From positions 124,001 through 188,000 of the forward strand of contig DASZRK010000002.1 of the NCBI GenBank assembly GCA_035549195.1: a stretch of 64,000 nucleotides of DNA, given 5' to 3'. The DNA is from a bacterium (GTDB taxonomy: Bacteria > Oederibacteriota > Muellerivitia > Muellerivitales > Muellerivitaceae). The translations under genes and the position numbers were made by a program. The notes beneath the pieces were generated by a model. It did not search any database. It worked only from the letters and a program-made list of their open reading frames with translations, and had not been told where the DNA came from. Positions 36,015-59,100 of this stretch are shown in pieces (the first letter of the stretch is position 1; each line of letters begins with the position of its first letter).

Positions 36015-36947
36015 TTATTTGATCACCGTGAACATACGGGATTTCAGCGTTTTCATGTTGTCCTTGAACTCGCCGGCCCCGATGTGGGCGAACATGAAAA
36101 TGGCCAGGAGCAGGCAGAAGCCGCTGGTGTAAAGGTAGTTCTTGGACGCCTGGGCCTGTTCCTTCAGCAGGGCCGGATCCGACGGCGGGGTCTTCTGGAA
36201 CCGGATGCCCGCCCAGCCGAAAAGACAGTAAAGGATGACCAACAGGGACCCCAGGATCACGAAGACGCCCATGGAGACGCTGTGCCAATAGATGACCCAG
36301 GCCCGCCCCTTGATGTTCTCGGCGGGGACCTGGCCCCAGTAGCGCGAGTCCAGGCTGTTGTCCCGGTTGTCGCCCATCATGAAGTAATGGTCCGGTTGGA
36401 CGGTGACCGGGCCGAAGTTGACCTTGAGCGAATCGGGCCCATCGACCGCCAGCGCCATGAGGGGCGTGTAGAGGTGTTTGACGTAGGGCTCCACCTGCTT
36501 CTCGCCGTTGACATAGACGTCGGCGTTCCGCAGCTCGATCACGTCGCCGGGGATGCCGATGCAACGCTTGATGAAGTCCTTGGAGGGGTCCACCGGATAA
36601 ACGAAGACCACCACATCCCGGCGCTTGGGCTTGCCGAACTCCAGGAACCGCGGCGTCTTATTGAGGAAGGAATAACCGTAGGCGTACTTGTTCACCAGGA
36701 TGTAGTCGTTGATGAGCAGCGTGTCCTCCATGGAGCCCGAGGGGATGGTGAAGGGCTGCACCAGCACCGCCTTCAGCGACAGGGCCACCGCCATGGCCAC
36801 CCAGAGGGAGTCGAAGGTCTCCACCCACCCGGCGTTCTTCGGGTCCTTGCGGAAGGCCGGCAGGCCGAAGCGGATGAAGATCTCCACCAGCGTCAGCGCA
36901 CCGAAGAGACCCCAGAGGATCCCGTTCAAATGGTCCATAATGTCCAT
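36015..36947 (-). CDS. lepB: Signal peptidase I
   Basis: Membrane-bound serine protease that removes Sec signal peptides. The 310-residue product has an N-terminal membrane span, the catalytic Ser in FTIPSGSMEDTL, the catalytic Lys in FIKRCIGIPGD, and MGDNRDNSLDSRYWG. After the catalytic domain there is an extra C-terminal stretch of about 90 residues with two likely membrane spans (FVILGSLLVILYCLFGW and YTSGFCLLLAIFMFAHIG), an uncommon addition. Start ATG 36947 with GGGAGAG upstream; it follows lepA by 22 bases. Confidence 0.93.
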   Translation of the reverse strand: MDIMDHLNGILWGLFGALTLVEIFIRFGLPAFRKDPKNAGWVETFDSLWVAMAVALSLKAVLVQPFTIPSGSMEDTLLINDYILVNKYAYGYSFLNKTPRFLEFGKPKRRDVVVFVYPVDPSKDFIKRCIGIPGDVIELRNADVYVNGEKQVEPYVKHLYTPLMALAVDGPDSLKVNFGPVTVQPDHYFMMGDNRDNSLDSRYWGQVPAENIKGRAWVIYWHSVSMGVFVILGSLLVILYCLFGWAGIRFQKTPPSDPALLKEQAQASKNYLYTSGFCLLLAIFMFAHIGAGEFKDNMKTLKSRMFTVIK

Positions 36948-36969: not shown

Positions 36970-38769
36970 TTATTCCTCGACCTTCAGCACCGCCATGAAG
37001 GCTTCCTGCGGTATTTCGACGCTCCCGATGTTCTTCATGCGCTTCTTGCCCTCTTTTTGCTTCTCCAAAAGCTTGCGCTTGCGGCTGATGTCCCCGCCAT
37101 AGCACTTGGCGAGCACGTCCTTTCGACGCGCCCGGACCGTCTCGCGGGCTATGATCTTGCCCCCGATGGCCGCCTGGATGGGCACCTCGAAGAGCTGTTG
37201 GGGGATGATCTCCTTGAGCTTTTCGGCGATGCCCCGTCCCCGGATCTCCGCCTTGTCCCGGTGCACCATGAAGGAAAGGGCGTCCACGGGTTCGCCGTTC
37301 AGGAGGATGTCCACCTTCACCACCTCGCCCACCTTGGTGCCGATGGGCTCGTAATCGAGCGAGGCGTAGCCCTTGGTGCAGCTCTTGAGCTTGTCGAAGA
37401 AGTCCATGACCACCTCGGCCAAGGGGAGCTCATAGGTGATGAGGGCCCGGGAGGTGTCCAGGAAGTGGGTGTCCTTGTGCACGCCCCGCCGTTCCTGGCA
37501 AAGGGTCATGACCGCCCCGATATAGTCGGCGGGCACGATGATCTTGGCATCGATATAGGGCTCTTCGATCTCCTCGATCTCGGAGGGGTTGGGCAGTTTG
37601 GAAGGATTGTCCACGGTGAAGGTCTCCCCATTGGTCTTCTTCACCTTGTAGACCACGCTGGGGGCGGTGGCGATGAGGTTGAGATTGTATTCGCGTTCCA
37701 GGCGTTCCTGCACGATCTCCATGTGGAGAAGCCCGAGGAACCCGCAGCGGAAGCCGAAGGAGAGGGCCAGGGAAGTCTCGGGCTCGTAGGAAAGAGCGGC
37801 GTCGGAGAGTTTCAGCTTGGCCAAGGCCTCCTTCAGGTCCTCGTAATCATCCGAGATCACCGGATAGAGGCCGCAGAAGACCATGGGCAGCACGTCCTTG
37901 AAGCCCGGCATGGCCTCGGCCGTGGGCCGGCCCTCTTCGGTGACCGTGTCCCCCACCTTGGCGTCGCGCACTTCCTTGATGTTGGCGGCCACGTACCCGA
38001 CCTCGCCCGCCAGCAGGCCCTCGGTCTTCTCCATCTTGGGCTTGAAAACGCCGACCTCCTCCACCTCGAAGACCTTGCCGGTGGACATGAGCTTCATCCG
38101 GGTGTTCTTGCCGATCCTGCCGTTCAGGAGCCGGATGAAGACGATGACGCCCCGGTAGATGTCGTACATGGAATCGAAGATGAGGCCCTTCAAGGGTTCG
38201 TCCGGCTCCCCGGTGGGCGGAGGAACCCGCTTCACGACCGCTTCCAGGATGTCCTCGATGCCGATCCCTTCCTTGGCGGAAGCCGAGATGGCCTCCTCAC
38301 CCGGGATGGCGAGGGATTCCTCCATCTGTTTCTTGCAACGTTCCACGTCGGCGGCGGGCAGGTCGATCTTGTTGATGACGGGCACGATGGCCAGTTTCTG
38401 GTCGAAGGCCAGATAGGCGTTGGCGAGCGTCTGGGCCTCCACGCCCTGGGAGGCGTCGATCAAAAGAAGCGCCCCTTCGCAGGCCTTGAGGCTGCGGGAG
38501 ACCTCGTAGTTGAAGTCCACGTGGCCCGGGGTATCGATGAGGTTCATCTCGTACTTTTGGCCGTCCTTGGCCTTGTAGAAGAACCGGACCGCCTTGGCCT
38601 TGATGGTGATGCCCCGCTCCCGCTCCAGGTCCATCTGGTCCATGAGCTGGGCGCGCATCTCCCGGGGCGGGATGGCACCGGTGAATTCGAGCAGGCGGTC
38701 GGCCAGGGTGCTTTTACCGTGGTCGATATGGGCGATGATGCAGAAATTGCGGATGTGGGACAGCGACAA
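36970..38769 (-). CDS. lepA: Elongation factor 4 (LepA)
   Basis: Ribosome-associated GTPase that acts in 30S biogenesis or back-translocation. The 599-residue product has G1 AHIDHGKST, switch [10 protein letters not shown]3 DTPGHVDF, G4 NKID, and the LepA-specific C-terminal region ([21 protein letters not shown] at the end). The first codon is TTG at 38769, with GGGAG six bases upstream. A TATACT box at 38800-38805 on the minus strand may be its -10. It heads lepA-lepB-hemW. Confidence 0.97.
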
Positions 38770-39676: not shown

Positions 39677-39734
39677 TGGCGATCTCCCGGCTCTTTACGA
39701 TGTATAGGGGCCCTGGGGCTCCCCGAGTTACCGA

Positions 39735-40529: not shown

Positions 40530-42924
40530 AGGTCAGCTCCATGAATTCATTGTTCAGCGTTCCCGAAATGGGTCCGTCATAAGGAAGTTCATTGGTCCAA
40601 TCGAAGCTGTAGTCGAAGTGGACCTTGGTGTTGCGCCCGGTCTCCAGGGTCGTGGAGAGGATAAGCTGGTTGTCATAGCCGTTCACCGTGAAAACCGAGT
40701 ATTGGCCCAGGTCGGTGTTGTCGAACAGGTAGGTGGCCCGCGCGGTCGGAACGCCCCCGATCCCCATTTCGGAGCCCGAGAAGCTGCGGGTGCCGAAGGA
40801 ACCGCCGACCTGCCAACCCGGGAAGAGCCCCGCCTCGACGCCTCCCAGCACCCAGAGGCTGTCCAGGGTCCCGGCGACGCTGCTGGTCTCCTCGAAACGA
40901 ACGTTGGTCCCGATCACGAAAGGCGTGGAAAGCCCGGCGCCGGGCCCGATGTCGATGGAAGGACCCAGGTTGAAATAGACGAAGTTCCGCTTGGGGACCT
41001 CCCCGCCAGCGGTGGTATCCAAGCCCGTATAGCCCGTTCCTCCGCTGTTGACCACAAAGTTACCACTGATCTCGTCCAGGAAGTAGGCGGCCGCCCGGAT
41101 CCTGAGGCTTTTCTTCTCAAGGGTCTTGATGTCGATCTCGCCCCCGAACCCTTCCCGGTTGGGAGTGGCCAAACCATAGGGGAACACGTTGTCCAGGGTC
41201 CGGTCGTAATAGCCGAAGATGGCCCCCGCCCGCGGGACCGAACTCAAGAAGAATTGGGACATGGGCTGGAAATTGAGGCTTTCCGGACCCACGAGGAGGG
41301 TATTGCCCGGCGCCACATCGCGGGTCTGGGCCAGGGGGGAATAGTAGTTCGGACCGACGTTCAGGTAGGTCAGGGAGACCTTGGAATCGCCGAACTGGAA
41401 GAAGGGGCCGAAGCTCATGGCATAGTCGCTGATGGTGCTATCGGTGTTCCGCTTGTCGTCCTGGAAGCTGGCGAAGGCCCCTTCGTATTGGGCGCCCAAA
41501 TAAACATCATCCCCCACACCGACCCGCAGGGTCGGGGCCACGCTCCCGATCATGTATTGATGGGCCCAAGTGGCGGTGTTGAATTGGCCGTAAGGGGAAC
41601 CCGGTTGGGTCGAGTCCAGGGGTTCGTCCAGGATGATGCCGTAGGCATCCGCGCTTACCTGCCAGGACATTCCACCAGCGTACCATTTCTTCGATTTGAT
41701 CGTCCCCTTCCCGGCCAGGATGAGGTCGGTGAAGATGTTGGACCCCATGTACCATCCGCCGCCGCCGTCGTTGAAACCCTGCCGGATCATGTGGACGAAG
41801 CCGGAGGCGCTCGCCGATTCCAGCACTTTTGAATCAGGCCAGCCCAGCGCGGTCCCGATCCTCAGACCCCGGAAGGGAAGCTCGGGCTGCCGGTCCATGA
41901 AGGTCTCGTATTTGGCGATGGATTCCCAACGGGCCATGGGCTCGGGCTTGTAGAAGAGGTCCTCGCTGTCCCGGCCCCAGAGGGTGAAAGGGCTGTAGGC
42001 TTCGTAAAAATCGCCGAGGGACACCGACATGTATTCCGGATTGAATTTTGCCTCCACCCAACGCAATTGCAGGAAATCGTTATAGAAGGTGGAACTGGAA
42101 CCGATCTCGGGGGATTCGGAGGCACCCAAGGCATTGAAAAGGCTCGGCGAGGAGGTCTTGGGCAGGAAGGAGGACCCCAAACGGATGATCCCCTTCCAAC
42201 GTAGTTCCTTGGACACGCTCCCGGTGGGCTCCAGGTCCAGGTAGCCGAAGGCTTGGCGGTTACCCGTATTGTCGAAAAAGCTGTTGGTGTAGGTCCCGAA
42301 ATATTGCTGGCCGATCCCCATGGCCCGGCCCACACCGTGGATCGAGACGCTCGGATATTCGGTGATCCCCCGCACGCTCCGCCAAAGGTCGAATTGGTCG
42401 GCTTCCGCCTTGGATAGCTTGGCGTCCAGGTCGTCCTTCTGGTCCCGGACCAGTTTCAGCTCGAAGTCATAGGCCTCTTGGAGGTTCTGGAGGTTTTTCT
42501 CGGCCTCCTCCACCTTTTTCGGGTCCTTCCAAAGGGGGAGCGACTCGGCCGGCGAAAGCGAATCGGAGGCGTTCCCGGTGTTGGCCGTATTGGCGGCGTT
42601 ATCGCCCGGAGGCAGGGGGGCGCCGGCGTCCGGCGGGGGGGGGGGCAGGTCCATGTCGGCCTGGGCGACGACGACTTCCTTGAACTTGGTCTCGGCCTTG
42701 AAGATGCGCTCGGCCATCTCGAAACGGGTCAGGGGCCCTTTCGAATCACCTGGGGCCAGGAGTCCATCACTCTCCAGGGCCTTCAAGCGGGTGTAGGCCG
42801 GGTCCCCTTGCGGCACCAGGGAGAAAAGACCGGCGCGTTCCGTCGCGGAAACCTGGGCCCCGGCGCCCGCGAGCAGGAGCAGTCCCAAGACCGGGATCAG
42901 GAAGGGCTTAGAAGTGGGCTTCAT
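40513..42924 (-). CDS. Outer-membrane beta-barrel protein with SLH-like N-terminus and coiled coil (paralogue 1)
   Basis: Predicted outer-membrane porin or tether, 803 residues. Signal peptide about 1-27. An SLH-like segment (about 38-80: DPAYTRLKALESDGLLAPGDS, TRFEMAERIFKA), an acidic Pro-rich patch (DLPPPPPDAGAPLPPGD), a coiled coil (about 135-178, KKVEEAEKNLQNLQEAYDF), then some 600 residues of alternating beta-strands ending in aromatic ELTYETEF, a classical barrel C-terminus. This order matches OmpM/SlpA-type proteins that tie the outer membrane to peptidoglycan. It shares YYSPLAQT and FPYGLATPNREGF with the neighbour at 42908. Its start overlaps that gene by 17 bases. Confidence 0.72.
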   Translation of the reverse strand: MKPTSKPFLIPVLGLLLLAGAGAQVSATERAGLFSLVPQGDPAYTRLKALESDGLLAPGDSKGPLTRFEMAERIFKAETKFKEVVVAQADMDLPPPPPDAGAPLPPGDNAANTANTGNASDSLSPAESLPLWKDPKKVEEAEKNLQNLQEAYDFELKLVRDQKDDLDAKLSKAEADQFDLWRSVRGITEYPSVSIHGVGRAMGIGQQYFGTYTNSFFDNTGNRQAFGYLDLEPTGSVSKELRWKGIIRLGSSFLPKTSSPSLFNALGASESPEIGSSSTFYNDFLQLRWVEAKFNPEYMSVSLGDFYEAYSPFTLWGRDSEDLFYKPEPMARWESIAKYETFMDRQPELPFRGLRIGTALGWPDSKVLESASASGFVHMIRQGFNDGGGGWYMGSNIFTDLILAGKGTIKSKKWYAGGMSWQVSADAYGIILDEPLDSTQPGSPYGQFNTATWAHQYMIGSVAPTLRVGVGDDVYLGAQYEGAFASFQDDKRNTDSTISDYAMSFGPFFQFGDSKVSLTYLNVGPNYYSPLAQTRDVAPGNTLLVGPESLNFQPMSQFFLSSVPRAGAIFGYYDRTLDNVFPYGLATPNREGFGGEIDIKTLEKKSLRIRAAAYFLDEISGNFVVNSGGTGYTGLDTTAGGEVPKRNFVYFNLGPSIDIGPGAGLSTPFVIGTNVRFEETSSVAGTLDSLWVLGGVEAGLFPGWQVGGSFGTRSFSGSEMGIGGVPTARATYLFDNTDLGQYSVFTVNGYDNQLILSTTLETGRNTKVHFDYSFDWTNELPYDGPISGTLNNEFMELTYETEF

Positions 42925-45199
42925 AGGTGAACCTCATGATCTGGTCGGTGCGGTCGTAGCTGGGGACGTCTTTCCAGGAATACTCGTTGATGAAAAGGTC
43001 GCCCCGGAAGTTGATGGTCTTGGACAGGGGGTAAAGGAAACCGAAGGCCAGGGTGGTGCGGGTCAGGTTGAGGGGCGTGTAGCTGTATTGACCCAGGGAG
43101 CCCGTGTCCAGGTAGAAGGAATAATTGGCCAAGGTCGGCGGGTTTCCCGCGCCGGCAAGGGTGTATTCGCTCCCCGCGGCTTGGGTCTGGACAAAGGCCG
43201 TGGATAGCACCACCGAATCGAACCCCGCGAAAGGCACGGTGAAGTCGGCGGAGGCGATAAGGGTCGTCACGTCGAACTTGGAGGAACCGAAGAGGGTGGT
43301 GGTCTCGTCCTTGTAGTCGAAACCCAGCTGATAGGTTTTCCCCTTCAATTCCAAAGGTTTCGCCAGTTCCACCGTCATGGCGCCTTCCCAACCCTCAAAG
43401 GTGCGTTCGGCCCCGACCGAATCCAGGGTATCGACGGCCACACCGCCGGTGCCCGCGCCATTGAGGACATAATTGGCCGTGGTCTCTTTGAACCCGGTCA
43501 TGAGCTTGGCCCGGGGATGGAGCCAGGCCTCGATGTCGGCGTCGAACCCCAGGATCAGGCCCTGTCGGTTCGGGGTCGCGTCCCCATAGGGGAGGGCGTT
43601 CTCGTTGAGGCGGTCATAAGTGGCGAAGACCGGCCGGCCGGCGGCCGAGACCGGATAGCGGTTCAGGTATCCGATCAGGGCCTCTTCCTCCTGGAAGTTA
43701 TCGTTGCTGAAGTAGCCCGTGGGCGGGTTCCCAAAGGAGAATCGGTTGGTCTGGGCACCGGGTGAATAGAAGTAGGGACCGATGTCCATGTACTTGGCGC
43801 TCAGGTGGAACCCGGCGATGTTCAGGGAACCGCTCATCCAATAGGCCCAATCCTGGAAGGCCCGGTCGGGATTATTGGCGTCGTCCACATAGCGGCTGGA
43901 CCCGTACTCCCCTTCCCCGGTCACGTTCACGTCGGCGTCGAAGGGGACCTTCACTTTGGCCGAGAGGCTCCCCACGTGGTACTGCTTCGGGAAGGTCAGG
44001 GGGAAGTCGGGGGTGTAGAGGTTGTTGGAATCGTTGATCGTGCCCGGGTCGTCCCAGATGAGCAGGCCATCCCCTTTGAGCTCCACGTTCTTGTCCAGCA
44101 GGACCAGGGCGATCTGGGACCCGGCCATGTAGTCCCCGAAGCTGAACTCGGTGGCGTTCTTGATGGGGCTCACCATGGCCTCGGCCTTCAGGTCGGAGAA
44201 GAAGGGATCGTTGGAGCCCATGAGGTCGGTCGAGGCCCGGAAGCCCCGCACCCGGAAGTCGGGGCCATGGTCCATCATGGCCAGTTCCTCCACGTCCTTG
44301 CGGTTGCGGTAGAAGGAAGAAGGTTCCAGCAGGGTGTAGACGGGAACGTCGTAGTTCCAGAGGACCAAGGGACTATAGTGTTGCCAGAAGTCTCCGGCGT
44401 TCACCGTGAAGTATTCGTTGTAATCGCTCAAGGATAGCCAGCGTAGGTCGGTCTTGGGGGAAATGGGGTCCGCGTAGAACATCCCCAGGGTCCTCCAGAA
44501 CCGGATCGTGGCCTCGAAGAGGACGGTGGGCACCGGGATGCTGTGCAGGCTCATGTCCATGAAGAGGTCGTAGTTGTATTGGGTGGTGGTGTAGGGCGCG
44601 TTGATCCCGAAACCTCGGTAGCTGTTGAAATATCCCCGGGAAAAACCGGTCCCCTCGGTCCCGGTCCGTTTCAGCAGGACCTGTTGCTGGGCCCCCAGGG
44701 ATTCATTGCGGTGCTCCAGGGCGAAGATCCGGTCCTCGATTCTCGGCAGGTCGGCCCCCATGGCCTTGAGTTCCTTCTTGAATTCTTCCACCAGTTGGCC
44801 GGCGCTCTTGGAAGCGGCCGGGGACGGGAAGCTCGGCAGGCCCGCGGCCGCCGGAGGCGGGGGAAGGGCCCCCGGAAGTCCGAAGTTGGGGTCCATGGGC
44901 GGTGGCAAGGTCAGGTCGTCCCCCGGCGGGGGCAATTGGGCGACCAGGATCTCCCCGGTATGGGCGGTCATCTCGGCCGCTTCCAGGTTGGACAATTGGG
45001 CGATCGGTTTCGTCGGCGACGGGGCCCATCCTTCCTCCACCAGGCGGGACAGGGCGTCGTTGATCCAAGGGGACCGCTCGTTCGAGGACAAGGTCCCATG
45101 ATCGGCCCGGGCGGCCGAAAAGGCACCCAGGACCATCGCGAGGACCGCCCCTTGGATTTTGTTCGTTCTCTTCTTCACGGAAACCGTCCCTTTACCCAT
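42908..45199 (-). CDS. Outer-membrane beta-barrel protein with SLH-like N-terminus and coiled coil (paralogue 2)
   Basis: Predicted outer-membrane protein, 763 residues. Signal peptide ends near SAARA-DH. A short SLH-like region follows (SPWINDALSRLVEEGWAPSP, SNLEAAEMTAHT), then a Pro-rich patch (PPPMDPNFGLPGALPPPP), a coiled coil (KSAGQLVEEFKKELKAMG to about 170) and a long beta-strand-rich region ending RFTYEAHF. Shared segments with the 40513 protein: DIGPYFYSPGAQT and LPYGDATPNRQGL. ATG at 45199 lies 3 bases after the stop of the upstream gene, so translation is probably coupled; a GTG at 45178 is an alternative start. Confidence 0.72.
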   Translation of the reverse strand: MGKGTVSVKKRTNKIQGAVLAMVLGAFSAARADHGTLSSNERSPWINDALSRLVEEGWAPSPTKPIAQLSNLEAAEMTAHTGEILVAQLPPPGDDLTLPPPMDPNFGLPGALPPPPAAAGLPSFPSPAASKSAGQLVEEFKKELKAMGADLPRIEDRIFALEHRNESLGAQQQVLLKRTGTEGTGFSRGYFNSYRGFGINAPYTTTQYNYDLFMDMSLHSIPVPTVLFEATIRFWRTLGMFYADPISPKTDLRWLSLSDYNEYFTVNAGDFWQHYSPLVLWNYDVPVYTLLEPSSFYRNRKDVEELAMMDHGPDFRVRGFRASTDLMGSNDPFFSDLKAEAMVSPIKNATEFSFGDYMAGSQIALVLLDKNVELKGDGLLIWDDPGTINDSNNLYTPDFPLTFPKQYHVGSLSAKVKVPFDADVNVTGEGEYGSSRYVDDANNPDRAFQDWAYWMSGSLNIAGFHLSAKYMDIGPYFYSPGAQTNRFSFGNPPTGYFSNDNFQEEEALIGYLNRYPVSAAGRPVFATYDRLNENALPYGDATPNRQGLILGFDADIEAWLHPRAKLMTGFKETTANYVLNGAGTGGVAVDTLDSVGAERTFEGWEGAMTVELAKPLELKGKTYQLGFDYKDETTTLFGSSKFDVTTLIASADFTVPFAGFDSVVLSTAFVQTQAAGSEYTLAGAGNPPTLANYSFYLDTGSLGQYSYTPLNLTRTTLAFGFLYPLSKTINFRGDLFINEYSWKDVPSYDRTDQIMRFTYEAHF

Positions 45200-45202
45200 C
45201 TT

Positions 45203-47698
45203 TTAGAACAACAAGTAGAATTCGGAGATCCATTGCCCGGTGTGATAGCTGTTGGCGGGCACATAGGCGTCCTTGAACGTCACATCCTTGTAGCGCAATT
45301 CGAATTTGCCCGATCCCCAAGGTATGTCATAAGCGAACCCGCCCCCGATCACATCGGTGCGGTAGTCCACCAGGGGATAGGTGTAGGCGCATTTCCAGGT
45401 CTCCCAGCCGTATTCCCCCATGATGTTGACGTTGCGGATCAACTGGTACATGGCCCCGAAGTCGACGACCTGCTGCTCGAAAAGGTTGGAGATGTCGGAT
45501 TGGGACGGGTCCTGGGCCTTGCCCGACACCCGGTTGTCGGTGAAGAAGACCGACCCGTAGAGGGGCTGGTCGATCCCGAACATCTTGTTGAACTGGTATT
45601 TAGTGGTCAGGGTGATGTAGCTGTAGGTCTTCAGGTGGGTCAACATGGTGTAGGCGTTGGTGCCCGCCACGACCCCCGGGGCGGACCCGTTGACCACGAT
45701 GGCCCCGCCGCCGGTGGTGACCGGCATCATCAAAGGAATGCGCTCGGAAGAAAGGGTGAACTGGTAGCGGGTCTGCTGGCCGGAGCTGATGTCGCCGTCG
45801 TTGCGGAGAGCCTCGATATTGTTGTCATAGGCCTGGCGGGCGGGCAACCAGGGCGCGGCCGCATAGCCGCCCCAGAGGTCCAGTCCCCAGATACCTTCGT
45901 CCTCCTGGTAATAGGGGGAGAGGACGTTGAAGGCTTCCACGAAGTTGTAATTGTTGTAGACCGGGTCCCCGTTGGAATCGGTCCCCACATTGGTGGGGCT
46001 TTGAACGGCCCGGTATTCGGTCTTCTGGGCGAAATCGAAATTGACCACGATATCGTCGAGGAAGCTGGGCCAGCCCCTCATCCAATCCTGCTTGCGGCCG
46101 TCCCAGCCCAGGTTGGCGCGCCAGCCGTAGCGGTTACTGACCAGGTTGTCCACTTCCCCCACCAAGCCATAGGCGTCCTCGAAGGAACTGGAGGTATAGC
46201 CCGGGCCCGCGTAGACCCCATATTGGTTGAAGTTGACCCCGGCCATGGCCACCTTGCTGTTGAAATTGGCGAAGCTGTCGCTGATGGCGGTGTAGAAGAG
46301 ATTGAAGGGATAGTAGGAGATCTGGACCTGTCCCGCGGGCGCTTCCAGGGCGGCCTTGGCCGGCTGGCCGTTGTCGATGCCGGAATAGAGGTGGGAGAAT
46401 CCGGCTTCCACGTCGATCCGCACCGGCTTGAGGTCAAACCCCAGGCTGGCCTGATAGGTCTTCAGATCGAGTTGAGGGACCTGGTTGACGCCGAAGTCGT
46501 CGTTGATCCACTCCGTGGACAAGGCGGCCTGGACCGTCCCAAAGTTTTTGGAGAGCTTGGCGGCCTGCTCGAAACGGTTCCCTTGGGTGTTCTGGGTCCC
46601 CATGCGCCCGAACATCAGGACCATGTTCCCATCCTGGCCCAACCAGGGCAAGTTGGACCCGATGCCATAGATCCCCGAGAAGACCGGGTCGAAGCTGGAA
46701 ACGATGGCCCCGGCGGCCGAAGAGGGCGGCACCGCCGAGATGTTGCTCACGTAATCGTCCCAGGTCTTCTGGTCCTTGTCGTCGGAGAAATGCTTGATGT
46801 CCACGGGGTTTACGTAGCGCTTCAAGGAGGTGGGTCCGATGCCCCGGGTGAAATCCCCCAGGGTCCCGGCGCCCGGATAGCCTTCCGCCATGAAATGGGT
46901 GTCCCAACGGCCCAAGGGGCCGTCGAACTGGAAGCTCACGTCCGGGTTATAGATGCCGAAGCTGGCACCTTGGGAATTGGCGTTGGCGTCGGTCAAGGTA
47001 CCGGTCAACCCTAAGGAAATGGCTCCCTTCCCCCCGAAATCACTCCACATACCCAGGTCGATGGAATTGGCGGTCCGGATGGCGTTCACCACCGTGATCC
47101 CCGACATGGTCAGGTTCTCGAAGCGGAAGCGGGTCTTGGTGCTGAAGTTGGGGATGCCGCTGCTCTTGTTGGCCTTCTTCCAGGTCGCGTTCACGTCGTC
47201 CTGGACGGTATTGAGCTTTTCCATTTCCTTCTGCCACTCGGCCAGGCGGTTGTCGTAGAGGCTCAAATGGGTCCGCAAGAGCTCCGACTCCTGCTTGAGT
47301 TCCTTCAATAGGTTGTCGATCTCCTGCCGCACCCAGGGGTTCACCGGAGGAGCCATCGGGGTGGGGATCGGCGTCGGAATGGCGATCGGCATGGGGGTCG
47401 GGATGGGCTGGGGCGTGAAGGTCGGCGTGGGTTGGAGCAATTCGGGGGCCGTCAGGCGGGCCTTGGCCTTCTCCGTATAAAAGGCCAGTTCCAACCGGCT
47501 GACGATCTTGCCCTGATCGAGCTTGGCCTGGTCCTGGGGGTCCAGGAGGCCGTAATCCTCCAGGTGCTTGACCCTTTGATAAAGAGGGTTGTCGGGCGTC
47601 AATTGGTCGAAGGGATTCGCCAGGGCCCGGAAGCCCAAGGCCCCGCCGGCCGAAACCAGGAGGAAAAGGGCCAAAAATTGTTTCAAACGAAGTTCCAA
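45203..47698 (-). CDS. Outer-membrane beta-barrel protein with SLH-like N-terminus, Thr-Pro linker and coiled coil (paralogue 3)
   Basis: Predicted outer-membrane protein, 831 residues. Signal peptide 1-28 (ends RALA-NP). SLH-like segment (about 29-80: DNPLYQRVKHLEDYGLLDPQD, SRLELAFYTEKA), then a linker rich in PTP (about 88-118) as in the secreted hydrolases, a coiled coil (RQEIDNLLKELKQESELL, about 125-170) and a beta-rich domain to WISEFYLLF. The barrel part is more diverged from the other two and has DWMRGWPSFLDDIVVNFDF and LYGSVFFTDNRVSG. First barrel gene of the run, 67 bases after the lipoprotein gene at 47766. Confidence 0.72.
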   Translation of the reverse strand: MELRLKQFLALFLLVSAGGALGFRALANPFDQLTPDNPLYQRVKHLEDYGLLDPQDQAKLDQGKIVSRLELAFYTEKAKARLTAPELLQPTPTFTPQPIPTPMPIAIPTPIPTPMAPPVNPWVRQEIDNLLKELKQESELLRTHLSLYDNRLAEWQKEMEKLNTVQDDVNATWKKANKSSGIPNFSTKTRFRFENLTMSGITVVNAIRTANSIDLGMWSDFGGKGAISLGLTGTLTDANANSQGASFGIYNPDVSFQFDGPLGRWDTHFMAEGYPGAGTLGDFTRGIGPTSLKRYVNPVDIKHFSDDKDQKTWDDYVSNISAVPPSSAAGAIVSSFDPVFSGIYGIGSNLPWLGQDGNMVLMFGRMGTQNTQGNRFEQAAKLSKNFGTVQAALSTEWINDDFGVNQVPQLDLKTYQASLGFDLKPVRIDVEAGFSHLYSGIDNGQPAKAALEAPAGQVQISYYPFNLFYTAISDSFANFNSKVAMAGVNFNQYGVYAGPGYTSSSFEDAYGLVGEVDNLVSNRYGWRANLGWDGRKQDWMRGWPSFLDDIVVNFDFAQKTEYRAVQSPTNVGTDSNGDPVYNNYNFVEAFNVLSPYYQEDEGIWGLDLWGGYAAAPWLPARQAYDNNIEALRNDGDISSGQQTRYQFTLSSERIPLMMPVTTGGGAIVVNGSAPGVVAGTNAYTMLTHLKTYSYITLTTKYQFNKMFGIDQPLYGSVFFTDNRVSGKAQDPSQSDISNLFEQQVVDFGAMYQLIRNVNIMGEYGWETWKCAYTYPLVDYRTDVIGGGFAYDIPWGSGKFELRYKDVTFKDAYVPANSYHTGQWISEFYLLF

Positions 47699-47765
47699 GA
47701 ACGTCCTCTATTTAAGGATGACCGGCTCAACCCAAAATGAACCCGTCCGGATCGACGGGAAAGGC

Positions 47766-48536
47766 TCAGTAAAACTCCACCTCATCCACCCAGTAATCGA
47801 TCGCATAGGTCCCGGCGGCATTGTTGGCGCTGTGCGCCCAGGTCAGGTTGATGAACTCCTTCAAGTGGTCCGACATGTCCGGCGGAGTCACGGGAGCGCC
47901 CCATCCTTCCCGCTTCAGGTCGGTGAAGGCGTAGGCTTTCTTGGTCCAATCGGGGGAAACGGACAGGTCCGCCCCGAAGTTGTCATAACAGCCTGAACTA
48001 CAGGTCCCACCCTGGTCCGGCGGAAGGGTCACGGCGGTGCCCACCTTGAAGCGCCGCTTGAGGGCCTGGTCGGTGGCGGGACATTTGTAATAGAACTGGA
48101 TGCCGGTGAAATTGCTGGCATCGTAGAAGCCGCTGTCCTTGAACTTCCCTTGGATCTCGAAATCCGGATAGACCTTGTCCCCATGGTCCGTCAGGTTGCC
48201 GTAGATATGGGCCGCCTTGGGGGTGCCATTGGCCCCGCCCGCCGCGCCTAGGTCCGCGTTGAGGGTGTTGCCGCCGAAGGTGATGGCCAGCCACATGCCG
48301 CCTCCGCCGCCGAAGAGCTTGGAATTGGTCGCCTTTCCGCCGCTTTCGAAATCGTTGACGACCCGGGCTTCCCGGGGGACCGCGACCTTCTTGGGCGGGT
48401 TCGCCGCCGGGTTGGACAGGCCTTCCGTCAGGGATGCGTTCTTGGAACCTTCATTGATGAAAACGGCCCCGCAACCTTGGAAGAAGAGGACGGACGCGGC
48501 CAGCAAAAAGCCAAAAGCCAGGCACCAAGACCGCAT
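47766..48536 (-). CDS. Lipoprotein with carbohydrate-binding-like beta-sandwich (paralogue 3)
   Basis: Unknown function; 256 residues. Signal RSWCLAFGFLLAASVLFFQGC with an FQGC lipobox. Then RVVNDFESGGKATNSKLFGGG, GTPKAAHIYGNLTDHGDKVYPDFEI, FTGIQFYYKCP, a Cys pair CSSGCYDNFG, LKREGWGAPVTPP and the end YAIDYWVDEVEFY. It is the clearest match to the motif set shared by the lipoproteins at 38903 and 39735. GAGG lies 6 bases before the ATG at 48536; a longer frame upstream lacks support. It leads the run of six genes ending at 38903. Confidence 0.7.
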   Translation of the reverse strand: MRSWCLAFGFLLAASVLFFQGCGAVFINEGSKNASLTEGLSNPAANPPKKVAVPREARVVNDFESGGKATNSKLFGGGGGMWLAITFGGNTLNADLGAAGGANGTPKAAHIYGNLTDHGDKVYPDFEIQGKFKDSGFYDASNFTGIQFYYKCPATDQALKRRFKVGTAVTLPPDQGGTCSSGCYDNFGADLSVSPDWTKKAYAFTDLKREGWGAPVTPPDMSDHLKEFINLTWAHSANNAAGTYAIDYWVDEVEFY

Positions 48537-48711
48537 GAACACCTCGGGGGATCCGGTTGGGATAAATGCTCTAAGGAAACAAGGGACCGGCAAAAAAGCC
48601 TGGGTATTTTACTAAAAGGGTCCGGAACCAGGAACCCTTTTTTGCCTTGGGGACCATGTCCCGAGCGATGAAGGACTAAAGCGGTTTTAGGCTCGAGAAA
48701 CCGGTTTCATG

Positions 48712-48738
48712 AAAAAAGGACCCCTTCAATCGTGGGGT
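48712..48738 (-). terminator. Intrinsic terminator overlapping the stop of the fusion gene
   Basis: On the minus strand ACCCC (48738-48734) pairs with GGGGT (48724-48720) around a 9-base loop and is followed by CCTTTTTTC. The stem begins right at the stop codon. A further imperfect hairpin with AAAAGGGT/ACCCTTTT lies at about 48614-48642 in the same gap, which otherwise shows no gene. Confidence 0.6.
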
Positions 48739-51700
48739 TATTCCGGTTTCCCACCGTCGGTGGTATCCGTGAAGGGCGCCGTTTTGCCTGCGGGGACTTT
48801 CTTCATGTAGGCGAAGTCGAAGACCCGCATGGCTTGTCCGGGTTTTTCCAACAACACCGCGGCCATGTAACGGTCGTCCCGGGCGGGGTCCTCCGTCTTG
48901 GGAAGGTTCGCAAAGAGGTTCTTGACCCGCACCATGTGGCCGGAGGGAAGGTCGAAAGGGCCCACCGTCGCCAGGTCCGTGTAATAGTTCTTGCTGGTAT
49001 CGACCTGGTGCAGGACCACGCCCTTGATGGCCTCGTTGGATTGGTTCCGGATCTCCACGCTCAAGGGGATCGGCACCCCGCCCGGCGCCCGTTCGGGGGC
49101 CACCAGGGTCATGTCGATGGGCACCAGCCCCTCCATCCGCTGCATCGTCGAGAAGGCCTTGCCCCCCGCCACCGCCCACTCCATGGAGCTGTAGGGTCCC
49201 CGCACCCCATAGACGATACGGTAAAGGTCGTGCCAGAACATCCCGAGCGAGGAGTTGACCGTGAACCAATCCTGGAAGACCCCCACCTCCCGGTCGTAGA
49301 GTTCCTCGGGCCCCGGGGGGTCGAGGGATTTCTGCACCCAGTTGAAATCCACCATCTCGCCCGGGGCGTATTCCCCGTTGCACCGGGCCAGGTACTGGGG
49401 CCATTGGGTCTTCATGGACTTGAGGGTGTTCCGGTCCCCCTCATAGAGCATGATCTGGTTGAAGTTCACGCCCGCGTCCACGTACATGGCCGGGTCCTGT
49501 CCGTGCTGGTGCCCCATTTCCCATCCCAGGGTGAAGGTGAAGACGGGTTTGGAGACCTTGGCTTCCTCCAGGATGCCTTTGAGGGTCAGGGCCACCTTAT
49601 GGGCCCGCCACCATTGGAAGAGCGTGTTCACTTCCTTGCCGATCTTGTGCTTCTTCCCCGATTCCACCGTTTCCGCCAGCCAATGGATGCGCTCGTCCCG
49701 GGACATCTTGGCGAACTCGTTCGGCACGGGGACGTCCAGGTCGTTCACGAACTCGTCCACCAACTCATAGCCTGCATCGCCGGTGCGGACATAGTCCAGG
49801 CCGATCATGTCGATGTCCGGGTCCTGGTCCAGTTCCTGGAGGAATTGGACGACATCATGGTGCCGGTGCTCATCCTGGAGGGAGATGAACCGGGTGGGGG
49901 CCACTTCCCCGGTCTCGCGGTCATAGCCGAGCGAGAATTGGTAGGGCGCCTGGGCCCAGGCATCGCCCACCACCTTGAAGGTGGTCATGTAACCGGCGAA
50001 CTTGAGCCCCGCCTGGTGGCAGAGCTTGGCGTATTTCTTCCCCACTTCCATGTCGCCGCGGCTGAAGGGGAAATCCCGCGCGATCATGTGGTCCCAGATC
50101 GAGGTCTGGCCCATCAGGTAGCAATAGATGTTGGCCCCCATGAACTTGGCCCATTCGACGGCGTTGGCCGCCCGCAGGGAATCGCTCCCATCCAGGGCCG
50201 GGACCGCCCCGCCCACCAGCTGTTTCCCGCCCTCCATGGTGAGGGCGGCGTAGCCGGGATAGAGGCCCGAGGGCTTCAAGGGCGAGATGGTGAAGGCCGA
50301 CTGGAAGACCTTGGGCGACTTCCAGCGGGGGCTATGGACGGTCACCTCCGCTACATAGGTGCCGGGGATGGGGTTGAAGGGAATGGGCCAATTCCCATGG
50401 AACCGGCGCTGGTCGTTGTCCTTCTTGAGGGGCATGACGGTCCTGTCCTGGACCCAGGTGACCGGTTCCCCGTTCCGGGTCACCTGGACCGAGGCCTGCA
50501 TCTCGCTGAAGGCCTCCTTTTCCTGGTCGCTGATCTTCACCTCGACGGGGACCATCTCGTAGCGTTTGTAGTCGCGGGCGGGCATGACGGCGATGACATC
50601 CGGGACCAGCTGGGTCTCCAGGGGGATCAGCACCCCGAGCCTCTTGGCATCGGGCGAGAAGGTGGCCGCGGCCCAATAGCCCCCGCCAACGAGGATGGCC
50701 AGGATCACCGCCCAACGAAGGTCGCGGAAAAGGGCCTTGCGCGAGGGAGAAAGCGGCAGTGGGACGGGGGGCGGGGGCGCCGAGGGCCGGGCCGACGGGA
50801 CTTCCTCCGCCGGGACCGACGGAGTTAATTCCTGGACAGGGACTTCGGCCGGGATGGGCGGCTGGACAGGGGCCGGTGCCACGGCAAGGACGGGTTCGGG
50901 CTCCGGGGGAGCCTGGAGTTGTTCCAGGACCACCGGCGCTTCTTCCGGTTCCCTTTCGGGGGGGATCGAACGCTGGACCACCTCCGGCGTCGGCGCTTCC
51001 AGGGGCTCCTGAACAACCTCTTCCTGGACCGGGCTTGGGGCTTCCTGTACCGTCGCCTCGGACCATTGGGTCTTCATGACGGGGGCCGGCGGTTCGGCAG
51101 GCACGAAGGATCTTTCTTCCTCCGCTTCGACCACGAAGGCCTGGGTCTCCTCCTCGATGACCGATTCGACCCTTTCGGTCAGCACTTCCTCCTCGATGGC
51201 CTGCAGGAATTGGGCGGCCTTCGAGGCCGGGCGGTTCCCCTCGTCCGTGGCGGGACCCTGGGACTGGTCCCGGGTCCGGGCGATGGCCTGCTCCATCCAT
51301 TGGAAGGTCTTTTGGCCGGCTTCCACTCCATCACGGGCCGCCTTGCCCAATTGGGTCGCCGTTTCCGCCCCCACCTGGCCCACCACTTCGCGGGTCTTTC
51401 GGGTGGCGTCGCTGCCGGCCCGGAGGGCCCGTCCCAGACCCCGGCCGGCCCCTACCGCTCCCTGGGCCGCCGAACGTCCCAGGAACGAAACGAGGGACCA
51501 GGCCAGGCCGAAGGCCGCTCCGAACTGCTGCCCCACCGCCACCATGAGCCCGGCGGTGCGGTCCTTGAAATAACGGAAATTATCCGAGACGTCCTGGGGT
51601 TTGGGGGGCGCGATCGGCGCGGCGACGCGGAAGGGGGTCTCCCCGGCCAGCGCGGCCTCCTCCGGCGTCTCCGGCAGGACGGGCTTCTCCCGGGTCAACC

Positions 51701-53123
51701 GCACCACCGTTTCGGTGTGGTAGGTCTGGGGGAACATGTCGAGCGGTTGGGCCCAATCGACCAGGTAGCCGTGCTTGGAAAGGAGCGCCAGGTCCCGGGC
51801 CAGGGTGGAAGGGTCGCAGGACACATAGACGATCCGCTCCGGATGGAGCGAGGTCACCCGCGCCAGCACCTCGGGCAAGACCCCCTTTCGGGGCGGGTCC
51901 AGCAGGACCGCGTCCACGCGGTTCATCCCCTTCTCCCGCAGGCCCAGAAGGATGGGGGCCACGTCCCCCTCGAGGAAATCGATGTTGGCCCGCTGGTTGA
52001 GCTTGGCGTTCTCCTTGGCGTCCTCGACGGCGGGGCCGATCTCCTCGATCCCCACCACGTAATCCGCCAACGGCGAGACCGCCATCGCCAGCGTGCCGAT
52101 GCCGGAATAAAGGTCGAGGATCGTCCCCCAGCGCTTCTTTCCCGTGGGGGCGCCCAGGGCTTCCCGCACCACGGTGTGGAGGATGTCGGCCTGGGCCGTG
52201 TTCACCTGTAGGAAGGAACGTAACGAGACCTTGAGCTTCAGGTCGTCGATGACCTCGAAGTAATGGTCCCGCCCGGCCAGCACCCGGGTCGTGGGCCCGA
52301 AGACGATGTTCGTCCGGGAAGGGTTGATGTTCTGCAGTACGCCCACCAGACCCGGGGTCTCCTCCATCAGTTCGCGGGCCAGGCGGGGCAGGATGCCCTC
52401 CAGGGGTTCGGGCAGGAGGGTGGGCTTCTGCACCCGTTCCTCCGGATCCTCGGTCCGGGTCACGAAGGCCAGCAGGAACTCGCCCGTCTTCTGCCCTTGC
52501 CGCACGGTCAGGTGGCGGAGGAAGCCGGAATGCTTCTTCTCCTGGTAAGGGGTCAGGCCCGATTGATCGATCTTGGCGGTGACCTTTTGCAGGAACTGGT
52601 TGATGCCGTCGGCCTGGATGGCGCAGGTCGTGTAGGGGACCAGGTGATGGGACCGGGGTTCATAGATGCCCGTGATGAAGTGCCCGTCCCGCATGGAAAG
52701 GACCGGCATGGCTTTGTTGCGGTAGGCATAGGGCGACGGCGAGGGCAGGCAGGGTTGGACCGTGACGTCGCCCATCTTGCCGATGCGCTGGAAGGCATCC
52801 ACGACGAACTGACGCTTGGTCTGGAGCTGGCGCGGATAGCTGAAGTGCTGCCACTGGCAGCCGCCGCACTCCTGGAAGATGGGACAGGGCGGCTGGACCC
52901 GGTCGGGGGAATGCCGGAGGACCTGGAGGATCTCCCCCACCGCGTAGTGATCCTTCACCTGCACGATCTTGAGGCGGACCCGCTCGCCCGGCAGGCCGCC
53001 GGGAATGAAGACGGCGAAATCCTTGAAGCGGCCGACCGAATCGCCGCCGAAGGCCAGCGAGGCGACATCGATCTCGATCTCTTCGCCGTGCCTTACCGGC
53101 GGGGTCGGGTGGGTGGTGTTCAT
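48738..53123 (-). CDS. Fusion: RlmD-type 23S rRNA (uracil-5-)-methyltransferase + membrane anchor + glycoside-hydrolase-like domain
   Basis: One uninterrupted 1461-codon frame. Residues 1-478 form a complete RlmD/RumA-like enzyme: TRAM region, 4Fe-4S ligands C80, C86, C89 and C167, SAM motif LDLYSGIGTLA, LLDPPRKG, nucleophile C436 in YVSCDPST and base E471 in HTETVV. Normal RlmD ends here. Residues 480-800 are a low-complexity linker with a weakly hydrophobic patch (524-548), helical Gln/Ala-rich coil and Pro/Glu-rich stretch. A membrane span lies at about 803-820 (WAVILAILVGGGYWAAA). Residues 826-1461 look extracytoplasmic: an Ig-like part, then a TIM-barrel-like GH region (ANIYCYLMGQTSIWD, FAGYMTTF, DMIGLDYVRTGDAGYE, FTFTLGWEMGHQHG). 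An internal start at M527 could yield the second half alone; its best AAGGA is 16 bases away. Confidence 0.8.
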   Translation of the reverse strand: MNTTHPTPPVRHGEEIEIDVASLAFGGDSVGRFKDFAVFIPGGLPGERVRLKIVQVKDHYAVGEILQVLRHSPDRVQPPCPIFQECGGCQWQHFSYPRQLQTKRQFVVDAFQRIGKMGDVTVQPCLPSPSPYAYRNKAMPVLSMRDGHFITGIYEPRSHHLVPYTTCAIQADGINQFLQKVTAKIDQSGLTPYQEKKHSGFLRHLTVRQGQKTGEFLLAFVTRTEDPEERVQKPTLLPEPLEGILPRLARELMEETPGLVGVLQNINPSRTNIVFGPTTRVLAGRDHYFEVIDDLKLKVSLRSFLQVNTAQADILHTVVREALGAPTGKKRWGTILDLYSGIGTLAMAVSPLADYVVGIEEIGPAVEDAKENAKLNQRANIDFLEGDVAPILLGLREKGMNRVDAVLLDPPRKGVLPEVLARVTSLHPERIVYVSCDPSTLARDLALLSKHGYLVDWAQPLDMFPQTYHTETVVRLTREKPVLPETPEEAALAGETPFRVAAPIAPPKPQDVSDNFRYFKDRTAGLMVAVGQQFGAAFGLAWSLVSFLGRSAAQGAVGAGRGLGRALRAGSDATRKTREVVGQVGAETATQLGKAARDGVEAGQKTFQWMEQAIARTRDQSQGPATDEGNRPASKAAQFLQAIEEEVLTERVESVIEEETQAFVVEAEEERSFVPAEPPAPVMKTQWSEATVQEAPSPVQEEVVQEPLEAPTPEVVQRSIPPEREPEEAPVVLEQLQAPPEPEPVLAVAPAPVQPPIPAEVPVQELTPSVPAEEVPSARPSAPPPPVPLPLSPSRKALFRDLRWAVILAILVGGGYWAAATFSPDAKRLGVLIPLETQLVPDVIAVMPARDYKRYEMVPVEVKISDQEKEAFSEMQASVQVTRNGEPVTWVQDRTVMPLKKDNDQRRFHGNWPIPFNPIPGTYVAEVTVHSPRWKSPKVFQSAFTISPLKPSGLYPGYAALTMEGGKQLVGGAVPALDGSDSLRAANAVEWAKFMGANIYCYLMGQTSIWDHMIARDFPFSRGDMEVGKKYAKLCHQAGLKFAGYMTTFKVVGDAWAQAPYQFSLGYDRETGEVAPTRFISLQDEHRHHDVVQFLQELDQDPDIDMIGLDYVRTGDAGYELVDEFVNDLDVPVPNEFAKMSRDERIHWLAETVESGKKHKIGKEVNTLFQWWRAHKVALTLKGILEEAKVSKPVFTFTLGWEMGHQHGQDPAMYVDAGVNFNQIMLYEGDRNTLKSMKTQWPQYLARCNGEYAPGEMVDFNWVQKSLDPPGPEELYDREVGVFQDWFTVNSSLGMFWHDLYRIVYGVRGPYSSMEWAVAGGKAFSTMQRMEGLVPIDMTLVAPERAPGGVPIPLSVEIRNQSNEAIKGVVLHQVDTSKNYYTDLATVGPFDLPSGHMVRVKNLFANLPKTEDPARDDRYMAAVLLEKPGQAMRVFDFAYMKKVPAGKTAPFTDTTDGGKPE

Positions 53124-53325: not shown

Positions 53326-54138
53326 CTAGCGGCGGGGGGTCGGAGAGGCAACGGCGACCGGTTTGGGAGCCTTGGCATCCCCATCCAGTCGGAGGTTGTC
53401 CAGGTAGACCACCAAAGGTTGGGCGGCACCGGACAGATCCAGTCCGAAATGGAAGGACCGGATATTGGAGAGGTCGATCCGGGAGGCCGCCGTCTCACCC
53501 AGGGGCAGGACCAAGTTGTTGACCTTCCGGGGCAAAAGGGACCCCGAAGCCGTATAGACGTAGCCCCGTGAGTCGGCGATCTGGATGAACCAGGAGACCG
53601 GCTGATCCTGGGGATCGAAGACGTCCAGTTTCAAGTTGGCGTAATCCTGCCATTCATAGACCCCCAACTGGGTCGGGGAACGGTTCTCAAGGACCATCTC
53701 GGGCCGCCAGGCGATGGGGGGGGTCGGGACAGGGGAAGCCGGAGGAGCGACCGCCAAGGCGACCTGCTTCTTGCCGCCCGTGGGGGTCTGGGTCGGGGTG
53801 GCCGTGGGAAGGGGGGTCGGGGTGTCTCCCATGGAGGCGTCGGAGGTCAGGGCCGGGTTGGGGGTCGGGGTCGAGTAGAACTGGTTGAAGAGAAGGAAGG
53901 TCGCCTTGGCGGCGTATTTGCCGTGGGTCTTGTTCTCGGTCGAGGGTTCGATCTGGACATAACCACCGGTGGTCCAGTCATAGTCCCATTGCGGCCGCTC
54001 GAAGTCGTTGATCATCTGGCTCTTGGCTTCCACGTGCCTTTTGCCTAAACCGCGGGTGAGCCCGAGCCCGGCGGCGATCAAATAAAGGACGCCCAGGGCG
54101 GCCAGGATGATCAGGAGATTGATGAGGGGTCGACGCAT
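53326..54138 (-). CDS. Membrane-anchored protein with carbohydrate-binding-like beta-sandwich
   Basis: Unknown function; 270 residues from ATG 54138 (an ATG at 54150 is also possible). One N-terminal membrane span (LINLLIILAALGVLYLIAAGLGL), then MINDFERPQWDYDW, a Thr-Pro linker inside the domain (about 105-150) and LVVYLDNLRLDGD near the end. The NDFE start and the final strand resemble the modules in the three lipoproteins and in the large hydrolase. It sits directly upstream of the fusion gene, so the two may act on the same substrate at the cell surface. Confidence 0.65.
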   Translation of the reverse strand: MRRPLINLLIILAALGVLYLIAAGLGLTRGLGKRHVEAKSQMINDFERPQWDYDWTTGGYVQIEPSTENKTHGKYAAKATFLLFNQFYSTPTPNPALTSDASMGDTPTPLPTATPTQTPTGGKKQVALAVAPPASPVPTPPIAWRPEMVLENRSPTQLGVYEWQDYANLKLDVFDPQDQPVSWFIQIADSRGYVYTASGSLLPRKVNNLVLPLGETAASRIDLSNIRSFHFGLDLSGAAQPLVVYLDNLRLDGDAKAPKPVAVASPTPRR

Positions 54139-54237
54139 GTCCCATCCCATGGAAGTTTGGCCAGCAAAAGCCGAGGCATTGTAGCAACCGGGTTACGGGC
54201 CTGCAACGCAGAAGGCCCGCTTAAAAGACCTGATTTG

Positions 54238-57370: not shown

Positions 57371-58141
57371 TCAACCCAAAGTAACTGGCGATCCAATCTT
57401 CGCACCCAGCTTTTGCGCAGCGCTCCCCCCATTCACCGACACCTCCAGGTTCCCGGACGACCCCACCAAGACGGCCACCGTTCCCTTCTTGATCTGCGAA
57501 TAATGGGTCGCCACATGGAGCACCACCGTCTTGCCGATCTTCATGCGGAAAGGCTTGGGGATATGTTTGGCTTCCAGGTTCGTGATGAGATTCCCGAAGC
57601 GGTCGATCCAAAGCACTTCCCCGGTCCAGCCCGCCTTGGTCCTGAAGGGTTTCGGTAGTTCCCGCCAGACCCAATGGTTGATGCGGTTCCCCAGTTTCAA
57701 CAAGGGCACCCCCTTGGCCAGATGGGCGGCGGCGGGAGCGAAGATGTCCCGCCCGTGGAAGGTCGTGCTGGGGTTCGGAAGTTGGAATTTCTTATCGGTG
57801 AGTTCCACCACCTGTTCGATGCCCCAGTCTTTCAAGGCCGCCGAGAAAAGCCCATTGTCCGGGCCCACAAAAAAATGGCCCTGGGATTTGAGAACCACGC
57901 ATTTGCGGGCGCTCCCCACCCCCGGGTCCACCACGCAGAGATGGATGGTCCCGGGGGGGAAATAGCCGATGGAGGTCTTGAGCAAATAGGCCCCCGCCAT
58001 GACCGCCTGGGGCGGAACCTCGTGGGTCAGGTCCACCAGCCGGGCCTGGGGGCAGATGGAAAGAATGACGCCCTTCATAACACCGACAAAGGGGTCCCGG
58101 GAGCCGAAATCGGTGAGAAGGGTCATGATCGGCGTTTTCAA
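57371..58141 (-). CDS. S-adenosyl-L-methionine hydroxide adenosyltransferase
   Basis: SAM-dependent hydrolase of the fluorinase/chlorinase superfamily, forming adenosine and methionine. The 256-residue product has MTLLTDFGSRDPFVGVMKG, DLTHEVPPQ, VVDPGVGSARK, FVGPDNGLFS, FHGRDIFAPAAAHLA and FGNLITNL. The Asp-Arg-His-type triad segments of the hydroxide branch appear intact and no halogenase insert is evident. The AT-rich gap on its 5' side holds a family C repeat. Confidence 0.88.
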   Translation of the reverse strand: MKTPIMTLLTDFGSRDPFVGVMKGVILSICPQARLVDLTHEVPPQAVMAGAYLLKTSIGYFPPGTIHLCVVDPGVGSARKCVVLKSQGHFFVGPDNGLFSAALKDWGIEQVVELTDKKFQLPNPSTTFHGRDIFAPAAAHLAKGVPLLKLGNRINHWVWRELPKPFRTKAGWTGEVLWIDRFGNLITNLEAKHIPKPFRMKIGKTVVLHVATHYSQIKKGTVAVLVGSSGNLEVSVNGGSAAQKLGAKIGSPVTLG

Positions 58142-58221: not shown

Positions 58222-59100
58222 TTAAGAGGTCCAACCCATCAGGAACTCCTCGATGAGGGCCGGCAGGTCATCGTGATAACCGCCTTCCAAGAGCGCGAAG
58301 GTGGGGGTTCCGATGTCCTTCAGGGCTTTCCCGATCCCCCGGTAATCCTTCTTCGTGAGCCCGAACTGGGTGAGCGGGTCCTTCTCATAAGTATCGAATC
58401 CCATGGAGATACCCAACAGGTCCGGCTTGAATTCCGCGACCCGCTTGAGCGCGCTGTCCAAGGACTGGAAATAGTCCCGCTCCGTGGTCCCGGGCGGCAA
58501 GGGGTAATTGGCGCAGTTCCCCCGGGACTGGCGGCCCGTACCCGGATAGGCCGGGAACTGGTGGAGCGAGACATAAAGGAAAGGATCCCGGCCAAAACAG
58601 AAATCCTCGGTGCCGTTCCCGTGGTGGCAGTCCAGGTCCAGCACCGCCACGCGCCCGGCCCTTTTGTTCTTCACCTGGTCCTCGATCGCCACCGACATGG
58701 AATTGAGATAGCAGAATCCCATGCCGCTGTCCGGGGTCGCGTGATGCCCGGGCGGGCGCATGAGGGAAAAGACCTTTGGGCCTTCCAGGGCTTCTTCGGC
58801 GGCTTGCACCGCCGCTCCCGCCGCCAGAAGGCTGCTTTCCCACACCCCGGGAGCGCCCGGTGTGTCCGGATCGAAATAACCTTCCTTCTCGACCTGTTCG
58901 ATCATGGCCTTGTGATGGACCGCGTGCAGCTGTTCCAGTTGGACGGGTTTAGGTTCTTCGAATAATTGTCTGGGCAGGATACTTTTGAGGTGTTCCAAGG
59001 ACCTCAGGACCCTTAAAGGATGTTCGGGGTGGCCGGGGATGTCGTACTTCCCCACCTTTGTCGTGGAGAGGATTTTGAGGGGACCGGGAGAAGGTGTCAT
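58222..59100 (-). CDS. Histone deacetylase family (acetylpolyamine/AcuC-like) amidohydrolase
   Basis: Zinc-dependent deacetylase, 292 residues; bacterial members act on acetylated polyamines, acetyl-CoA synthetase or other substrates, which cannot be told here. Motifs: RPPGHHATPDSGMGFCYLN with the catalytic His pair, DLDCHHGNGTED with the Asp and His zinc ligands, GFDTYEKDPL with the third ligand Asp, and LEGGYHDD. The N-terminal HPEHPLRV segment is also typical. All active-site residues are present. Confidence 0.92.
   Translation of the reverse strand: MTPSPGPLKILSTTKVGKYDIPGHPEHPLRVLRSLEHLKSILPRQLFEEPKPVQLEQLHAVHHKAMIEQVEKEGYFDPDTPGAPGVWESSLLAAGAAVQAAEEALEGPKVFSLMRPPGHHATPDSGMGFCYLNSMSVAIEDQVKNKRAGRVAVLDLDCHHGNGTEDFCFGRDPFLYVSLHQFPAYPGTGRQSRGNCANYPLPPGTTERDYFQSLDSALKRVAEFKPDLLGISMGFDTYEKDPLTQFGLTKKDYRGIGKALKDIGTPTFALLEGGYHDDLPALIEEFLMGWTS

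Follow-up and report, generated by a model that had tools for sequence, protein, structure and literature searches.

A gene for the 23S rRNA methyltransferase RlmD is joined in frame to that of an exported protein of an unnamed family in a group of uncultured soil bacteria, most of them members of the candidate division FCPU426 (Goldiibacteriota). In the window, by which we mean the whole 64,000-nucleotide stretch of DNA analysed here, the fusion is a single unbroken frame on the minus strand that runs from an ATG at 53123 to a stop at 48738 and encodes 1461 amino acids, the length stated in a preliminary description of this DNA. The enzyme is known and the exported family has no name; what is new is their conserved union, of which no description was found in a literature search limited to open-licence papers. 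Our leading reading, to which the sequence features lend about an even chance, is that the fusion protein is a precursor that signal peptidase I would cut into an RlmD in the cytoplasm and a hydrolase-like protein in the periplasm. The features are collected in Table 1.

Table 1. Features of the fusion gene and its surroundings. Positions are those of the window, except for the last row.
Feature	Position	Strand	Basis
Complete fusion gene	48738..53123	-	1461 codons + stop; same frame in 8 relatives
RlmD half, residues 1-478	51690..53123	-	TRAM 10-66 (profile match); Cys ligands C80, C86, C89, C167; SAM motif D337; DPPR D409; C436; E471
Ala/Pro/Glu-rich linker, residues 479-800	50724..51689	-	in frame throughout; 83-368 codons long in relatives
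Weakly hydrophobic segment, residues 527-550	51474..51545	-	family f1 only
Hydrophobic segment, residues 801-824, read as internal Sec signal peptide	50652..50723	-	sequence layout
Putative signal peptidase I site with A-X-A motif, residues 818-820 (cleavage before T821)	50664..50672	-	9/9 fusions
N-terminal Ig-like domain, residues about 838-946	50286..50612	-	AlphaFold2 model
TIM-barrel domain, residues about 959-1330	49134..50249	-	AlphaFold2 model + Foldseek
C-terminal Ig-like domain, residues about 1345-1443	48795..49091	-	AlphaFold2 model
Neighbour of fusion with single N-terminal anchor, local control	53326..54150	-	conserved adjacency
Putative lipoprotein downstream of fusion	47766..48593	-	conserved neighbour in family f1; no Pfam match
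Large exported protein, porin-like by eye	45203..47698	-	conserved neighbour; no Pfam match
lepA (EF4)	36970..38769	-	adjoins stand-alone homologue in most other families
Signal peptidase I (lepB)	36015..36947	-	sole PF10502 match in window's genome
G013 fusion, 1135 aa	L027:120-3527 (G013:C161)	minus	RlmD-like half joined directly to exported half

The fusion was present as one frame in 9/9 genomes of two families (f1 and f2) of a single order, namely the window's genome and G001-G007, which make up all of family f1 that was searched, and G008 from the other family. The frames in the relatives ranged from 1153 amino acids, in a case ended by a contig edge, to 1527 amino acids, and contained no stop; in particular, none of the 8 fused relatives had a stop and a new start near codons 478-530, the pattern that the preliminary description had suggested looking for. 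When the halves were sought separately, as it had also proposed, the fusion was retained throughout f1 and f2, and the halves were separate genes elsewhere in the phylum. Among 45 genomes surveyed in the phylum, 9 contained this fusion, one (G013) a fusion of a second kind and 22 a separate gene for the C-terminal half; the remaining 13 showed no C-terminal half. The fused C-terminal halves formed one clade (100/100), as did the fused RlmD halves (99/99). An RlmD profile search of 212 genomes, of which 132 matched at the threshold used, yielded no comparable frame outside the two families. The fusion is confirmed as conserved and real, and more than a product of chance.

The N-terminal half matched the RlmD profile TIGR00479 over residues 25-471 (profile positions 3-432 of 432) with an E-value of 1.3e-122 and a score of 409.7 bits, the curated cut-off being 183.55 bits. 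The TRAM domain was likewise recovered by its profile, and alignment to other RlmD proteins, both fused and free-standing, showed that all four Fe-S cluster Cys ligands, Q306, the SAM motif, the DPPR motif, the nucleophile Cys and the base Glu are present, which bears out the claim that the first 478 residues hold every RlmD signature. Roles were assigned to these residues in keeping with what is generally known of RumA. Residue roles in RlmD/RumA, among them those of the cluster ligands and the general base, are discussed in PMC5614603. The catalytic residues were intact in the f1 and f2 fusions wherever the RlmD part had been sequenced, and dN/dS for this half was 0.12-0.21 where computable. 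The fused copy was the sole RlmD-type methyltransferase found in the window's genome and in the other f1 and f2 genomes. By its residues, the RlmD half encodes a complete enzyme, which is predicted to carry out the m5U1939 methylation of 23S rRNA.

For the exported half, an AlphaFold2 model of residues 801-1461 based on an alignment of 22 rows (pLDDT 83.6, pTM 0.83) consisted of a helix followed by a TIM barrel with one Ig-like domain on either side, in line with the Ig-like and TIM-barrel-like features first noticed by eye. An Asp at the end of barrel strand 4 (D1110 in the motif GLDYxRT) was invariant; of the catalytic acids that glycoside hydrolases carry at strand ends, it is the one candidate recognised. 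The top PDB matches in Foldseek were GH66 dextranases (5axh, E 8.4e-13), beta-amylase and GH2 enzymes, and a viral structure library returned mostly generic glycoside hydrolases. Since about 10% of residues were identical in the Foldseek matches and TM-scores over the whole chain were low (about 0.3 for GH66 and other Ig/TIM-barrel hydrolases), these matches support the fold class and not a family. None of the 22 members had a Pfam GH match, there was no NCBIfam hydrolase match, and the exported half matched no PDB sequence below an E-value of 0.2, so that membership in a known hydrolase family was rejected. The label glycoside-hydrolase-like given in the preliminary description is therefore supported by the model as to fold and does not extend to a known family.

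The two halves are separated by a linker and a hydrophobic segment, which had been described as a membrane span. A hydrophobic segment is indeed present, but it looks like the former signal peptide of an exported protein that has become internal: R795, K796, R800 and R803 are followed by a short core at residues 804-812, a GGG break and the A-X-A motif. The X of this motif is A, K, M, T or R across 9/9 fusions, and A-R-A is retained in G008 though its segment is otherwise unlike those of the other fusions. Positive charges lie on the N-side of the segment in all members, as expected for an N-in/C-out orientation. Judged by sequence, a positive n-region, a hydrophobic core and small residues at -3 and -1, the features of signal peptidase I substrates, are found in 9/9 of the f1 and f2 fusions. 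The stand-alone homologues begin with an N-terminal signal-peptide-like segment that in most cases ends in small residues; those in Spirochaetes appear to be anchored and not cleaved. With this layout, the earlier term membrane-anchored may describe only the precursor.

If the segment were not cut, as the preliminary description proposed, residues 804-824 would tether RlmD to the inner membrane with the hydrolase-like domain outside; this is the main rival reading, which we regard as real yet on the doubtful side. The hydrophobic segment with positive-inside flanks in all members is compatible with such a tether, the uncharged run of 21 residues in the window protein (804-824) and of 26 in G005 would allow an anchor, and the long linker would permit reach. 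Against this, the uncharged run is just 15-17 residues in 7/9 fusions, most of which have Lys or Arg as X, and A-X-A is kept in all nine; the anchor of the neighbouring single-pass protein, used as a control, has 24-27 uncharged residues. A tethered enzyme might localise rRNA modification at the envelope or make modification respond to the envelope. The signal-peptide layout is suggestive rather than conclusive as a sign of cleavage, and eight of the nine members belong to one family, so that the conservation of A-X-A partly reflects shared descent and G008 provides the only distant check. Because of these two points we place cleavage at about even and the uncut chain somewhat lower.

The surroundings of the gene point to its origin. 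Where the exported half has a gene of its own, this gene was located directly upstream of lepA in almost every case examined; G012, in which the two are on different contigs, is an exception. The order homologue-lepA-lepB is seen in G009, G015, G023, G029 and locus L079, and the order fusion-lepA-lepB in the window and, on single spanning contigs, in G001, G002, G004, G006 and G008. In the window, genes for putative exported proteins fill about 10 kb between the fusion and lepA/lepB, which are downstream on the same strand. Because of this conserved order, we read the fusion as having formed at the ancestral locus of the exported protein, with rlmD probably landing in frame upstream. The synteny with lepB is a matter of proximity, however, and not proof of cleavage. 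The interval between the fusion and lepA (38903-48593, minus strand) contains six large or small putative exported proteins, two types of which are repeated, and none of the six genes has a Pfam match. Elsewhere in the window, a gene for a SAM hydroxide adenosyltransferase adjoins one for a histone-deacetylase-like protein (57371-58141 and 58222-59100, minus strand). Homologues of the exported half outside the phylum, in Spirochaetes, Zixibacteriota, Coatesbacteria, Gemmatimonadota and Zipacnadia, include genes that adjoin the lipid A genes DUF374, Kdo transferase and LpxK, genes for UDP-glucose dehydrogenase, polysaccharide export and Wzz (capsule export), and a glycosyltransferase.

The Pro/Glu-rich linker noted after the normal end of the RlmD family was recovered as about 320 A/P/E-rich residues following residue 478. 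It was open in all fused relatives, with a probability of no stop, computed under a dinucleotide model, of 0 to 0.028 per genome. Its dN/dS was 0.41, 0.25, 0.30 and 0.67 in four pairs, for some of which dS was near-saturated, and pairwise codon comparison placed both domains under stronger constraint than the linker. These data bear on the proposal that one frame gives two proteins through an internal start, at M527 or elsewhere, of which the second would be a normal exported protein. Stand-alone homologues do begin just before such a hydrophobic segment, and G013 has MMKR immediately ahead of its own. Yet the fusions share no start codon between RlmD and the segment, and M527 itself, the candidate of the preliminary description, has no Shine-Dalgarno sequence and is not conserved. 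The dN/dS values below 1 and the lack of stops argue for a translated linker. Given the coding-type evolution of the linker and the lack of a conserved internal start, we consider two starts, like an artefact, to be unlikely. The segment at residues 527-550 was rejected as a true membrane span; it is missing in G008 and G013, and its positive charges are on the C-side, which is the wrong side.

A very improbable alternative is that the RlmD half is no longer an rRNA enzyme and serves the exported protein as a structural or regulatory head. It draws on the fusion in G013, the one genome in which a pseudo-RlmD fusion was seen. The RlmD-like half of this protein (23-26% identity) has kept the four cluster Cys, while the SAM motif, the DPPR motif, the nucleophile Cys and the base Glu are gone. 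Its model (pLDDT 71.8, to which RlmD rows of the alignment contributed) still matches RlmCD (TM about 0.75) and RumA (TM about 0.66). No other RlmD was found in the G013 genome, which is 89% complete, and lepB is located two genes from the fusion. In f1 and f2, on the other hand, the catalytic residues, the dN/dS of the RlmD half and its status as the only RlmD all speak against a mere head. As to a shared origin of the two kinds of fusion, the tree sets G013 apart from the f1 and f2 fusions (94/81), but an AU test does not reject a single clade (p 0.34). Lastly, the idea that a stop between neighbouring genes was lost through a mistake in assembly or base calling has nothing in its favour except that all genomes compared are metagenome assemblies. 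It was ruled out, with a negligible residual probability, since 9 independent assemblies from 6 genera and 2 families all show this one frame.

Three other long frames were rejected as precedents. The one in G011 apparently has a spurious N-terminal extension in high-GC DNA. Those in G186 and G168 are of other kinds and cytoplasmic in layout: by eye, the former (L100:812-3385, minus strand) is an RlmC/RlmD-like methyltransferase with a 470-aa PAS/histidine-kinase-ATPase-like tail, and the latter (L102:401-2326, plus strand, 641 aa) has a Maf-like nucleotide pyrophosphatase ahead of RlmD. In family f12, RlmD ends in some 200 residues that form a basic tail rich in Arg, Gly and Ser and possibly RNA-binding (L050:6969-8912 and L055:5074-6993), and the genomes with this tailed form are without the exported homologue.

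According to the cleaved-precursor reading, the RlmD part would fold in the cytoplasm and methylate 23S rRNA, while the old signal peptide (residues 801-820) would direct the downstream part to Sec. The Ig/TIM-barrel/Ig domain would cross to the periplasm and signal peptidase I would cut after A820. RlmD would then keep a membrane tail, unless proteolysis released it afterwards. The free periplasmic product would probably act on an envelope polysaccharide, a natural guess at its putative function. More tentatively, making both proteins as a single precursor that has kept its signal peptide inside the chain may lock ribosome modification and export of an envelope protein 1:1, and in another lineage the methyltransferase half may have become a non-catalytic Fe-S head. 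RlmD is usually treated as a stand-alone cytoplasmic enzyme, and its retention in fused form across two families links it to the cell envelope. The protein would also offer a natural example of a signal peptide that follows some 800 residues of cytoplasmic sequence, on which the handling of such substrates by Sec and signal peptidase can be tested. Finally, the fusion exposes an unnamed exported Ig-TIM-Ig family, found near lipid A and capsule genes in more than one phylum, whose presence here automatic annotation would miss by calling the whole protein 'RlmD'.

Compared with known systems, the N-terminal half shares with RlmD/RumA the full-length profile match, the TRAM domain and the cluster and catalytic residues. 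The known enzymes are soluble and about 430-480 aa long, whereas the fusion adds 980 residues and an export signal, and at the gene level RlmD is here not a free enzyme. The stand-alone Ig-TIM-Ig protein of FCPU426/Goldiibacteriota has about 30% identity over the whole domain, the same architecture and the lepA/lepB locus, but it is an unfused, separate gene with its own N-terminal signal-peptide-like segment. With GH66 dextranases and other Ig-TIM hydrolases the exported half has in common a barrel flanked by beta domains, and it differs from the dextranases in the sequence and TM-score comparisons given above. A close parallel to a cleaved precursor is Bradyrhizobium FbcH, the cytochrome b/c1 precursor, in which two proteins are encoded in one frame and signal peptidase cleaves at a signal sequence inside the chain. 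The leading reading proposes a similar course for the window fusion; the two parts of FbcH belong to one complex, whereas the window fusion would combine a ribosome enzyme with an exported protein to which it has no known link.
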